Source: Rhodopila globiformis
GTDB taxonomy: Bacteria; Pseudomonadota; Alphaproteobacteria; Acetobacterales; Acetobacteraceae
Length of the DNA: 35,338 nucleotides
Direction of reading: 5' to 3'
Assembly (NCBI RefSeq): GCF_002937115.1
Contig: NZ_NHRY01000066.1
Location: forward strand, 1-35,338
Part shown: positions 13,323 to 35,338 of the stretch, piece by piece
Numbering within the stretch: position 1 is the stretch's first letter
How the letters are laid out: each line of letters begins with the position of its first letter
The notes under the pieces: generated by a model
The model's database searches: none
What the model saw: the letters and a program-made list of their open reading frames with translations, nothing else
What the model was told of the DNA's origin: nothing
Program-made: the position numbers and the translations under genes

Positions 13323-14098
13323 TTTGAAGCGCCCGTGCGGCAATTGGAGCGGTTATTCTGCCTCAGGCCCTCAGGCCGAAGCAAATCTCGAGAGATCGAC
13401 CGCTTGTCTTCGACGCTGTCCTCGCCGGCATCGTTGCCATGACTATCAAAGGCGCCGCCGGCGCCCCACCTCGTTCGTTATCCGGACGGCGGATCGGGCC
13501 AGACTCCCTCTCGCTGAGCTGTATCGTGCTTGGAAGGCTCCGCTCATGTCGGCATCAACGTGTTGGCCCATGATCGCGCCCGCTGCCATGTTGGCGCTGT
13601 CCGCTGTCGGTTGAAACCCGCTGTGGCTGGTGCTCGACCGGCACCATGCCAGCCGCCCCGATCCGTGCGAAAGCGGCACGGCGATCGACGCCGAAACGCC
13701 GCGATCGCAGGCGACCATTATGCTTCCTCTGCTGGCTCTGCGCTCCGCTCTGCGATCTCTGCGTCAAAAAAAATGCGGTGACGCAACAAAGATCGGCGCT
13801 GCCTGTGAATCGCCCAACCTCCAACGCCGGCGGCACTCCGGCCACCGCGTTTCAACGCAGAGCGCGCAGAGCCCGCAGAGCAGGATTCGGGCGGCCCGCG
13901 GTCGCGCCAAACCGCATCGGCCAGGCACGCGGTTTCGGCATCGCCGGGACGTTACTAAGACGTTGCCGGAATCCCACCTTTCCGCCCAATGCCCATACAG
14001 GCGATCCATGAACGCGCAGCGCAGGCGCCATGATCCGCCTCGCGCCAACGGCACGCCCGTCGTATAATGGCAACAACGGCTGGCAGTTGGTATCGGAC
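13323..14098. other. Decayed region with a long imperfect inverted repeat
   Basis: No family-like protein can be read on either strand. A tract rich in CTCTGC words at 13726-13765 has an imperfect inverted counterpart at 13854-13883 (built on GCAGAGCGCGCAGAGC), about 90 bases apart. A run of eight A residues (13766-13773) lies next to the left arm. Composition is less strictly codon-biased than in neighbouring genes, consistent with gene decay beside the broken toxin-antitoxin pair. Confidence 0.5.
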
Positions 14099-14407
14099 AT
14101 GGAATCATCAGCCGAATTGCTGTAACGATTTCGCCGCGATGCCGAAAGGCTCTACCCGGGGCGCCTTGACCGGGCGATCCTGTTCGGCTCACGCGCCCGG
14201 GACGATGCGCGCGAGAACAGCGACTGGGATATCGCTTTGTTCATCGCGGACTTCGATCGCGGGCGGGAAAGCCGTCCGCTGAATTTTCTTTGTGCCGATT
14301 ATCGCCTGCGCGGACTGAAGGTATCGGCGATCGGGCTTCCGACGAACCGCCATGGCGTCGATCCCGGATTGCTGAGACATATCGATCACGATGGGGTATC
14401 GCCGTGA
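14099..14407 (+). pseudogene. Broken MNT-domain nucleotidyltransferase (MntA-like antitoxin)
   Basis: From ATG 14099 the frame reads MESSAELL, then TAA at 14123-14125, then continues in the same frame to TGA 14405-14407. After the stop it reads RFRRDAERLYPGRLDRAILF followed by GSRARDDARENSDWDIALF. The GS-R-x-D and SDWD elements are the catalytic signature of MNT nucleotidyltransferases, which in HEPN/MNT modules neutralise the toxin by AMPylating it. A single CAA-to-TAA change would explain the break. No good alternative start lies between the stop and the GSRAR motif. The GTG of the following HEPN ruin overlaps the stop as GTGA, the usual operon form. Read by hand in one frame; confident for the domain, moderate for the boundaries. 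Confidence 0.75.
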
Positions 14408-14885
14408 TCGATCCGGTTCAAGGGCAGAAACCGCCACCACCCTTTCCGTAAGGTCCCGAGCGGCATGCATTCTCGGCGCAGGCGTTCAATGATGCGTCTG
14501 ACAGACTTGCCGAAGCCGAGAGCCTGTCGCCGCAGAAGCATAGCCGCAGCATTGCCCATTGTTGCTACGATTGCCTGTTCTGGCTCGCCAGGCCGGTCCT
14601 GACCAAACAGGATGGCACTTATTGATCCGGCCAGGGTTATCTTGGCAAGCCGCATGCCAATTTCCTCTTTCTGAACAAGGGCTTACTTGTCACCGCCTGC
14701 CAAGATAACCCTGGCCGGATCAATATCCGCGGCGGCACGACAGCACGGAACCCCCGATCGGGACGATCATGGCTGCTGCGGCCGACCAGGACCTGGCCGA
14801 GGCCGACGCGCTCTATCGGGATGTCGCCGCCGAGCGGACTATCTGCGATTATCACTCAAGCTACAGCAGACCGCAGGTCGATTGA
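14404..14885 (+). pseudogene. Broken HEPN-domain toxin gene split by a mobile element
   Basis: The frame begins GTG at 14404, meets TAA at 14449-14451, then continues with AFSAQAFNDASDRLAEAESL, SPQKHSRSIAHCCYDCLFWL and ARPVLTKQDGTY. There the small element 14622-14723 interrupts it. Beyond the element the same protein resumes at 14726 with PRRHDSTEPPIGTIMAAAAD, QDLAEADALYRDVAAERTIC and DYHSS, and ends YSRPQVD at TGA 14883. The helix after SPQ, with an S-x-x-H-C-C-Y core, resembles the family's RAYYAMFHAA helix, and the C-terminal LAEADALYRDVA / CDYHSS block resembles the ADYxx ending of HEPN toxins (minimal ribonucleases). Two independent lesions (nonsense codon and insertion) make it dead. 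Assignment rests on order next to the MNT gene plus these motifs. Confidence 0.65.
14620..14725. mobile_element. 102-bp MITE-like element with 26-bp perfect terminal inverted repeats
   Basis: The ends TTGATCCGGCCAGGGTTATC then TTGGCA (14622-14647) and their exact reverse complement (14698-14723) flank a 50-bp non-coding core. A TA dinucleotide sits directly outside each end (14620-14621 and 14724-14725), as in IS630/Tc1-mariner insertions that duplicate TA. Removing the element plus one TA (104 bp) joins GGCACTTAT to CCGCGGCGG in the HEPN reading frame. It has no transposase, so it would have moved by a transposase supplied in trans. IS630-type affiliation is inferred from the TA duplication only. 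Confidence 0.82.
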
Positions 14886-15103
14886 GACAGGGCGACGGCG
14901 CTCCCTCATCGTCATGGCCCGGCTTGTCCGGGCCACCTGTCGCGGCAAAAGTGCTGGAACAGGTGGCCCGGACAAGCCGGGCCATGACGAAAGGGAAACG
15001 CAGCGGCGGACCGTTTCCGAGATCTGTGCATCCCGTAGGGACAAGCCGGGCCATGACGATGAGGACAGGGGGCCTCAGTGTCCCAACCGACCTGCGGTCT
15101 GCT
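14865..15103. mobile_element. Composite repeat element E1 with 24-bp imperfect inverted ends
   Basis: The left end AGCAGACCGCAGGTCGATTG then AGAC (14865-14888) and the reverse complement of 15080-15103 agree at 22 of 24 positions. Inside are a type A palindrome (14910-14989) and a module also found, inverted, at 35213-35281. The element carries no open frame. A second element with the same ends lies at 19414-19685. The left end supplies the last codons and stop of the HEPN ruin. Whether it is a mobile non-autonomous element or a stable repeat mosaic is unproven. Confidence 0.7.
14910..14989. repeat. Type A palindromic repeat, copy 2
   Basis: Perfect 29-bp arms 14910-14938 and 14961-14989 with a loop containing GTCGCGGCAAAAGTGCTGG, nearly identical to copy 1 and to copies at 19457 and 27891. 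It lies inside element E1. Confidence 0.88.
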
Positions 15104-18351: not shown

Positions 18352-19434
18352 ATGGCGGATGAAACCGGACGACTGCCGGCCTTGCTGGCGCTGCTCGACA
18401 TGCTCGCCCACGTCGCACGCCTGATGCACCCGCGGCGCCTGGCCCAGCTTGCCGCGCTGCTGGACGCCCCGGAGGCGGCGCTGCGCGCGGCGGACCCGGC
18501 GGCCGACGCGCTACCCGGCCCGGTGCAGGTGCAACTGGACCTGGCCGTAGCGCACGCCGTGCAGGCCTGTGCCGGGCTGCGCGCCGCCGCACCGGACAGT
18601 GACATGCGGCAGGCCTACCGGGCCATGCGCCACCACAGCCAGGCGCTGGAGGCGCTGTTCCCGCTGGCCGAGACCGTCCCCGCCGTCAGCCGCTGTTTCC
18701 TCGAAGCCCACCGGCGCGACGATCCGGCCGTGCTGGCCCGCGTCGCCGCGCCGCCGGCCCCCGGCAGCGGCGTGTTCCACGCCGGCAACGACATCGGCGA
18801 GCGCGGCGGGTTCTCGGTCTACGTGCCGTCCTGGTACGACCCCACCCGGCCGATGCCGGTGATCATGGCGCTGCACGGCGGCGCCGGCCACGGCCGCCTG
18901 TTCCTGTGGAACTGGGTGCGGGAAGCCCGCACCCGCGGCATGATCGTCGTCGCGCCCACCGCCACCGGCAGCACCTGGTCGCTGATGCAGCCGGAGATCG
19001 ACGGCGAAAATCTCAACCGGATCCTCGGCCGGGTGCGCGAGCGGTGGGCCGTCGACCCGGCGCGCCTGCTGCTCACCGGCATGAGCGACGGCGGTACCTT
19101 CACCCTGCTCAGCGGCGTCGCCGCGGAATCGCCGTTCACCCACCTGGCGCCGGTGGCGGCGGCGTTCCATCCGCTGCTGCTCGCCACGGCCAGTCCCCAG
19201 CGGCTGGCCGGCCTGCCGATATACCTGGTCCATGGCGCGCTGGACTGGATGTTCCCGGTGGACGGCGCCCGCACCGCGCAGCGCACCCTGACCGCCGCCG
19301 GCGCCGCCGTCACCTACCGGGAGATCGCCGATGTGTCGCACGCCTGGCCGCGCGACGAGCAGGCGGCGATGCTGGACTGGTTCGTAACCCACGACGGCGC
19401 CCCGGTCCGCTACAGCAGACCGCAGGTTAGTTAG
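18352..19434 (+). CDS. Alpha/beta hydrolase (esterase/phospholipase-like)
   Basis: A 360-residue protein. An N-terminal helical region (about 1-130) of no recognised family precedes an alpha/beta hydrolase domain: MALHGGAGHGRLFLWNWV (oxyanion region), the nucleophile elbow LTGMSDGGTF with Ser as nucleophile, HGALDWMFPV with the likely acid Asp, and VSHAWP with the catalytic His. The layout is that of the carboxylesterase/phospholipase or PHB-depolymerase-like group. The start is ATG 18352 behind GGGGGGACGG. The last codons, YSRPQVS and the TAG stop, lie inside the left end of repeat element E2, so the native C-terminus was probably changed by that element. The family core ends before this point, so the enzyme is likely intact. 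Confidence 0.83.
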   Translation: MADETGRLPALLALLDMLAHVARLMHPRRLAQLAALLDAPEAALRAADPAADALPGPVQVQLDLAVAHAVQACAGLRAAAPDSDMRQAYRAMRHHSQALEALFPLAETVPAVSRCFLEAHRRDDPAVLARVAAPPAPGSGVFHAGNDIGERGGFSVYVPSWYDPTRPMPVIMALHGGAGHGRLFLWNWVREARTRGMIVVAPTATGSTWSLMQPEIDGENLNRILGRVRERWAVDPARLLLTGMSDGGTFTLLSGVAAESPFTHLAPVAAAFHPLLLATASPQRLAGLPIYLVHGALDWMFPVDGARTAQRTLTAAGAAVTYREIADVSHAWPRDEQAAMLDWFVTHDGAPVRYSRPQVS

Positions 19435-19685
19435 GACGCAGACGGCCTGTCTTCATCGTCATGGCCCGGCTTGTCCGGGCCACCTATTCCAGCACGTGTG
19501 CCGCGACAGGTGGCCCGGACAAGCCGGGCCATGACGATGGGGGAACGCTCTTGGCGCCCAGGCAAGCACTTGATTTTACGATCATTTCCGACTCGTTTCC
19601 GAGATGTGTGCATCCCGTAGGGACAAGCCGGGCCATGACGAGTGAGGTGCGCCGTCGCCGTGTCTCAACCAACCTGCGGTTTGCT
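19414..19685. mobile_element. Composite repeat element E2 with 24-bp imperfect inverted ends
   Basis: The left end AGCAGACCGCAGGTTAGTTA then GGAC (19414-19437) matches the reverse complement of 19662-19685 at 20 of 24 positions, and matches the ends of E1. Inside are a type A palindrome (19457-19536) and module M1 (19537-19640). It has no open frame. Its left end codes for the final residues and stop of the upstream hydrolase. Confidence 0.7.
19457..19536. repeat. Type A palindromic repeat, copy 3
   Basis: Perfect arms 19457-19485 and 19508-19536. The loop (ATTCCAGCACGTGTGCCGCGAC) is the reverse orientation of that in copies 1 and 2, so the palindrome is inverted here relative to them. Confidence 0.88.
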
Positions 19686-22836: not shown

Positions 22837-22856
22837 CGCCGGGGGCGTTCCCGCTT

Positions 22857-22925
22857 GTCATGGCCGGGCGCGTCGGGGCCACCTGTCGCGGCACGCGTGC
22901 TGCAATAAGTGGCCCGGACAAGCCG
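22857..22925. repeat. Decayed type A palindromic repeat
   Basis: TGTCATGGCCGGGCGCGTCG then GGGCCACC and, at the right, AAGTGGCCCGGACAAGCCGC retain the outline of type A with many mismatches. It lies 20 bases after the DUF2336 stop. Confidence 0.7.
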
Positions 22926-22968
22926 CATACGCGCTGACCCGGAGATAGGGCCGTGTCCATTGCTTCTC

Positions 22969-23046
22969 CGTCATGGCCGGGCGTGTCCCGGCCATCCACC
23001 CTCCACCGTCGCAGCGCGGATGGCCGGGACACGCCCGGCCATGACG
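22969..23046. repeat. Type B palindromic repeat, copy 2
   Basis: Perfect 27-bp arms 22969-22995 and 23020-23046 match the copy at 3542-3617. The 24-nt loop differs from that copy except for the shared CCACC start. Confidence 0.86.
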
Positions 23047-27784: not shown

Positions 27785-28020
27785 CCATCCACGCCTGGCG
27801 GTATATTGATACCGCGGCACAGGTGTGGATGGTGGGCCCTCGCCCCATTGGCGTTAAAATGGCGTGGCGGCGGCACGATGCTTGCCATTCCGTCATGGCC
27901 CGGCTTGTCCGGGCCACCTGTCGCGGCACAGTGCTGGAACAGGTGGCCCGGACAAGCCGAGCCATGACGAGGAGGCAACAGCCAGCCCTGTTTTAACGCC
28001 AATGGGGCCTTCGCCCACCA
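27785..28020. repeat. Repeat cluster: module C, GGCGTTAAAAT block and type A palindrome copy 4
   Basis: CCATCCACGCCT (27785-27796) pairs with AGGTGTGGATGG (27821-27832). CCCCATTGGCGTTAAAAT follows at 27843-27860. The type A arms are 27891-27919 and 27941-27969, with one mismatch at 27960. An inverted TTTTAACGCCAATGGGGC block closes the cluster at about 27992-28009. The two GGCGTTAAAA blocks face each other across the palindrome, so the whole cluster is itself roughly symmetric. Confidence 0.85.
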
Positions 28021-35109: not shown

Positions 35110-35212
35110 CCGGTTCTCCCCGGCGGTGCGGCGGTTGCTTCTGCGTCATGGCGGGACACGCCCAATGCGTATCAGGATAGGGCGTCCGGCGGAGCAAGGT
35201 CTTCTCCCTCAC

Positions 35213-35338
35213 CGTCATGGCCGGGCGTGTCCCTACGGGATGCACACATCTCGGAAACGGTCCGCCGCTGCGTTTCCCTTTCGTCATGGCCCGGCTTGTC
35301 CGGGCCACCTGTCGCGGCACAAGTGCTGGAATAGGTGG
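35213..35338. repeat. Module shared with element E1 plus truncated type A palindrome copy 5
   Basis: 35213-35281 matches the reverse complement of 14990-15059, including TCGGAAACGGTCCGCCGCTG then CGTTTCCC. A type A left arm (35282-35310) and loop follow; the right arm begins at 35333 and is cut by the window edge. Together they reproduce the inner part of element E1 in reverse. Confidence 0.85.

Follow-up and report, generated by a model that had tools for sequence, protein, structure and literature searches.

We analysed a stretch of 35,338 nucleotides (the window), contig C66 of the Rhodopila globiformis draft genome. The draft comprises 7,248,147 bases in 278 contigs and is 98.55% complete; a genome size of 7.25 Mb is given in PMC7005127. 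As can be seen from Table 1, the window contains a nucleotidyltransferase (MNT) frame followed by a HEPN-like frame, the second of which is interrupted by a 102-bp element. Adjacent MNT and HEPN genes are the layout of a toxin–antitoxin pair, and the 4-base overlap between the two frames is also seen in an open pair from another genome (L123). Homologues of the HEPN protein of that open pair (135 were found and 120 of them listed, and the 68 of 125–145 aa were taken) were used to build the profile against which the two pieces of the HEPN-like frame were scored. The 72-aa piece upstream of the element had no candidate in the protein database, and the shorter piece had no Pfam match.

Table 1. 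Features of the interrupted MNT-HEPN locus, in window coordinates.
Feature	Position	Strand	Evidence
MNT (nucleotidyltransferase, antitoxin-like) frame; in-frame stop near start	14099..14407	+	Polbeta PF18765, 1.2e-7
HEPN-like frame, 5' part; GTG start overlaps MNT stop; in-frame stop near N-terminus	14404..14619	+	profile positions 8-55, 17.1 bits (modest; reversed control at most 0.3)
TA target duplication, left copy	14620..14621	.	sequence
MITE, 102 bp, non-coding	14622..14723	.	ends and other copies in genome
Terminal inverted repeat, left, 26 bp	14622..14647	+	sequence, end-pattern search
Sigma-54-promoter-like motif TTGGCATG-N4-TTGC (speculative), reading outward through left end	14645..14660	-	consensus match
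Terminal inverted repeat, right, 26 bp	14698..14723	-	sequence, end-pattern search
TA target duplication, right copy	14724..14725	.	sequence
HEPN-like frame, 3' part, to edge of other repeat	14727..14861	+	profile positions 58-102, 11.3 bits (modest; reversed control at most 1.2)

Direct reading and a script agreed to the base with the preliminary description, which had proposed an element of 102 bp bounded by perfect inverted repeats of 26 bp, with TA on both sides. With the TAs counted in, the inverted repeat matches at 28 of 28 positions, and it reaches 31 nt at 97%. As RNA, the element folds into a single long hairpin (−59.8 kcal/mol, z −9.6) that none of 200 shuffled sequences equalled, so the hairpin is not due to chance. 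An Rfam identity was rejected: the 25 matches obtained at a lax threshold, to microRNA families and one snoRNA family, were all below the gathering score. Such sub-threshold matches are typical of hairpins, and the strongest of them sit on a neighbouring repeat, not on the element.

The element is one of several copies in the host genome. Two further full copies, C28:732-833 of 102 bp and C114:86397-86505 of 109 bp, each have one substitution, the latter also an internal duplication of 7 bp; together with a half copy, C227:4363-4396, this gives three full copies and one half copy spread over four contigs. The full copies differ pairwise by one or two substitutions, apart from the 7-bp duplication in one of them. 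The preliminary description had proposed looking for the 26-bp end in this and related genomes, and had regarded the absence of any further copy as fatal to its reading. With up to three mismatches allowed, the end occurs seven times in the 7.25-Mb draft, compared with no occurrence of a reversed control pattern, and TA adjoins all seven ends. Thus short, non-coding and dispersed, with perfect 26-bp ends and a TA duplication, the element has the properties by which a MITE is recognized. At the half copy, the place of the missing left half is abutted by a different short inverted-repeat element of 145 bp with GTAATAGGGGCAAAACCC ends (L131 2219-2363).

Outside the host the element appears to be absent from close relatives. 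Among 33 genomes of the genus it was found in that of the host alone, and none of the other 32 carries the 104 bp, be it within a conserved functional gene or elsewhere; carriage in such a gene had been named as a second observation that would overturn the reading. The exact 22-base core of the end gave no match in 84,980 named species genomes (a set from which the host's own or very near genomes are possibly excluded) and none in viral contigs, and the element had no match among plasmids or phages. In a literature search on Rhodopila insertion sequences and transposases, which listed one paper on Acidiphilium (PMC7677001), no description of it was found. A further search gave matches in at least four other genomes, considering the best two candidates per genome. 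Two of these, in G107 and G139, are ends of IS630 elements. The match in G063 lacks a TA flank and was attributed to chance, and that in G369, which corresponds to a motif from the interior of the element, was also set aside.

The size of the target duplication could be determined from two independent genes, the stronger case being that of the C28 copy, which splits a DUF4365 gene at a TA. Against a profile of DUF4365 homologues (23 of 38 found, those of at least 160 aa), the upstream piece alone scored 170.5 bits over positions 2-116 and the downstream piece alone 33.8 bits over positions 118-168, the two other downstream frames scoring below 0. Since the pieces end at 116 and begin at 118, a single position lies between them, and it is filled by one TA and the next base. 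Indeed, in homologues of up to 79% identity the insertion point is occupied by exactly one residue: the uninterrupted P0124 (168 aa, 79% identical) reads LQKYLEANRI where the host has LQN, the element and LEAARI. The HEPN case is similar. There one extra residue, T, lies between the aligned part of the upstream piece and the element; scored separately, the two pieces leave room for exactly one codon, supplied by TA and the T at 14726. In each of the two genes a Tyr codon begins with the TA, and reading on into the element gives TAT TGA, the stop that had been noted for the HEPN-like frame. A one-codon gap in two unrelated genes requires a 2-bp duplication; the unit is therefore 102 bp plus a 2-bp TA, and the ends, which had been placed from the HEPN-like frame, are fixed to the same bases by the DUF4365 gene and its homologues.

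The MNT-HEPN locus is degraded in several ways. The preliminary description had claimed that excision of 104 bp restores the HEPN frame exactly. As regards the insertion alone this is correct, there being room for one codon, but the MNT frame and the N-terminus of the HEPN-like frame each contain an in-frame stop of their own. Moreover, the final residues of the supposedly family-like C-terminus, YSRPQVD (from 14862), come from the edge of another interspersed repeat and not from HEPN. With these further stops, and a C-terminus that runs into another repeat, a restored frame does not equal a working gene; the insertion is indeed later than the gene, as had been proposed, which says nothing of whether the gene still worked. 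The other repeat is a larger, composite one (14865-15103) that has AGCAGACCGCAGGTCG as inverted ends and contains a palindrome, and the HEPN-like frame takes its last residues from the left edge of this repeat; relatives of it lie at approximately 19414-19685, 2321-2610, 22837-23046, 27882-27979 and 35204-35338 of the window and on C152. A piece past this second repeat was considered as the HEPN C-terminus and rejected, as its score of 1.3 bits is no evidence.

An MNT paralogue on C152 of the same genome (95% identical in DNA and 96% in protein) lacks the in-frame stop. It belongs to a duplicated block of upstream DNA and MNT, in which window 13720-14421 corresponds to L130 9708-10419 with 87% identity overall and 95% in MNT. 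We considered the paralogue as an empty site and rejected it, because it diverges just past the HEPN start (window 14421) and holds no HEPN. The closest MNT relatives, in G196, G231 and G056, had no above-chance match to the HEPN pieces in the stretches examined. At the nucleotide level, 16 of the 33 genus genomes matched the HEPN locus (best 19 candidates or fewer in each); besides the two copies of the host itself, the matches were short stretches of 34–118 bp of the MNT part. An empty HEPN site in a relative, which the preliminary description had suggested looking for, was thus not found at the nucleotide level among these candidates from the 33 genomes.

We compared the ends of the element with those of full-length IS630-type elements. 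Whereas the exact core of the end had given nothing in the named genomes, a degenerate end pattern scanned over the same 84,980 gave 41 matches in 37 stretches, all 41 flanked by TA, from Acetobacteraceae MAGs, Dankookia, Paracraurococcus and Belnapia. Ends paired within 1.5 kb (loci L016-L089) define, after merging of records with identical ends, eight distinct elements, with ends 1,030–1,228 bp apart and TA on both sides of each; no pair of MITE size was among them. At least seven of the eight contain a transposase match (L070 being left out, and the best seven candidates or fewer per genome being considered), of which one has an in-frame stop and another a gap. A representative of these transposases matches the NCBIfam IS630 family transposase model NF033545 with 200 bits (cut-off 100), as well as DDE_3 and HTH_33 of Pfam. 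When the first 24 bases are compared, the MITE end agrees with 22 distinct IS ends at 17–23 positions, the closest being that of G139 (L016, L071) with 23 of 24. The suggested comparison with full-length elements thus revealed closely similar ends.

It is possible that some of the interior also stems from such an element. AAGCCGCAT, from the 3' end of the transposase gene by the G139 end, recurs in the left arm of the MITE. Past the repeat, the left arm shares 9 nt with the transposase 3' end, and 18 of 3000 shuffles were as good, compared with 898 for the right arm (the shuffle test was post hoc). Derivation of both arms from the transposase 3' end has the support of the left arm only, the right one not being outstanding. 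In every paired IS the ends are unlike each other, whereas those of the MITE are perfect copies, and a simple internal deletion of a sampled IS is thus insufficient to explain it. Homogenisation of the ends or an inverted duplication may possibly have given rise to the perfect ends.

The host draft yielded neither a cognate transposase nor a full-length partner. A single IS630 relative was scored there; it is 27% identical and interrupted, with no such end in the stretch examined. The end pattern, with up to three mismatches, had 12 matches in the host draft, seven from the MITE copies and five that resemble chance (four of these five are not flanked by TA). Within the genus, some IS630 relative is present in 18 of 33 genomes, the best being 36% identical, and no MITE-type end was found at the four genus IS630 loci checked (L137, L138, L139 and L141). 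An autonomous element in the same genome, which is usual though not required for an IS630-derived MITE, was accordingly not among the findings. Repeats are readily lost from drafts, so that a partner missing from the draft is not a proven absence. In Dankookia, 25 of 33 matches lie within about 115 bases of the end of the stretch examined, which is the contig end where the contig was whole.

Elements of this kind are already known, as is their mechanism: ours is a MITE like RUP and Correia. RUP, the repeat unit of pneumococcus, is about 107 bp long with 9-bp ends and inserts at TA; it is described as present in 108 intergenic copies, with IS630-Spn1 as its proposed mobiliser (PMC2229807). Judged by description, the two share their size, IS630-like inverted ends, insertion at TA, stops in the reading frames and inactivating insertions (for RUP, of transposase genes), and they differ in that our element has 26-bp perfect ends, three full copies and a half copy, and no partner found in the draft. 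One form of the Correia/NEMIS elements of Neisseria is about 107 bp long, with 24-bp ends, a terminal TA and stable stem-loop transcripts; N. gonorrhoeae has more than 120 copies, and promoters as well as IHF sites are reported for the elements (PMC2229807, PMC10969869). Our element resembles these by description in size, ends, TA and stem-loop; the host class and the number of copies differ. With the IS630-family elements of Dankookia, Paracraurococcus, Belnapia and Acetobacteraceae MAGs it shares the terminal bases and the TA flanks; unlike it, these are 1.03–1.23 kb long, have a transposase match in at least seven of eight cases and have unequal ends. ISY100, a Tc1/mariner/IS630 element of Synechocystis, has a TA target duplication and 24-bp ends, and mini-elements that retain 30 bp from each end are mobile in vitro when given transposase (PMC2170065). 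Mobilisation is thus demonstrated in vitro for ISY100 and deduced from sequence for the MITE.

With the ends and their TA flanks, the multiple copies, the one-codon room in two genes and the IS630 ends of the same type all observed, we consider it highly probable that the element is a non-autonomous MITE of the IS630 (Tc1/mariner-like) type, whose ends would be recognized in trans by an IS630-family transposase. The two 26-bp ends would serve as recognition sites for the transposase, which would move the element from a donor site and join it to a TA dinucleotide; repair of the gaps would then double the TA. At the HEPN site, a Tyr codon would have begun with this TA, and the frame would have come to end at the TGA provided by the start of the element. 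The proposal that an IS630/Tc1-mariner transposase acted in trans thus gains from the similar TA-flanked IS630 ends, while the acting transposase itself was not found in the draft. Its source presumably is an IS630 relative now lost, unassembled or located outside the host genome. The case provides a clean IS630-type MITE, defined to the base, from a purple bacterium in the family Acetobacteraceae, with a TA duplication backed by the protein homologues of two interrupted genes, a likely parent group that can be named, and a host genome whose draft yields no partner transposase for the family.

Could the element instead be a structured or regulatory repeat of the REP, ERIC or attenuator type, spread by recombination or another route, with the TA belonging to the repeat? 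The strong hairpin would fit, and since TA is present at seven of seven ends, a 28-bp repeat may equally be counted. We nonetheless judge this very improbable, because the room of exactly one codon in two unrelated genes demands a 2-bp duplication, a point on which the DUF4365 comparison largely refutes the repeat, and because elements that bear a transposase have similar ends. Duplication of TA is not unique to IS630, and this, together with the failure to find a cognate transposase in the host draft, would suit mobilisation by another TA-duplicating family, the likeness to IS630 ends being secondary. The probability of that explanation appears to be just as small, given that 23 of 24 terminal bases are common to the end of an IS630-type element from the same bacterial family and that eight distinct paired, TA-flanked elements have such ends. 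Two of the three full copies lie within protein genes, as would be expected of an in-frame insertion that was domesticated and kept in a functional gene, cf. the Rickettsia palindromic elements. The immediate stop in both genes, the additional stops in the MNT-HEPN locus and the absence of the element from the 32 other genus genomes make this the least credible explanation, one we scarcely entertain.

The left end region of the MITE contains a match to TTGGCATG-N4-TTGC, which we take to be the sigma-54 promoter consensus. It is the single match in the window; 100 shuffled windows had a mean of 0.03, three of them having one. The C114 copy departs from the motif. As a conjecture that we regard as a long shot, the elements might be an orphan MITE family private to the species that has outlived its transposase, in which a single IS630 end was copied in inverted orientation (which would explain why the ends are perfect) and a sigma-54 promoter pointing outward could turn on flanking DNA under nitrogen control. 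A 24-base match of 96% identity lies upstream of a putative OsmC-like gene in G369 (L019).

We also noted that the host genome contains two sets of reaction-centre genes, on C156 and C226 (L133-L136), with four Photo_RC matches. The reaction-centre M protein of C156 (L135) is identical to PDB 7xxf chain M across all 326 residues, and the M protein of C226 best matches other chains. 7XXF is described as the complex of Rhodopila globiformis, strain DSM 161 (PMC9640540).
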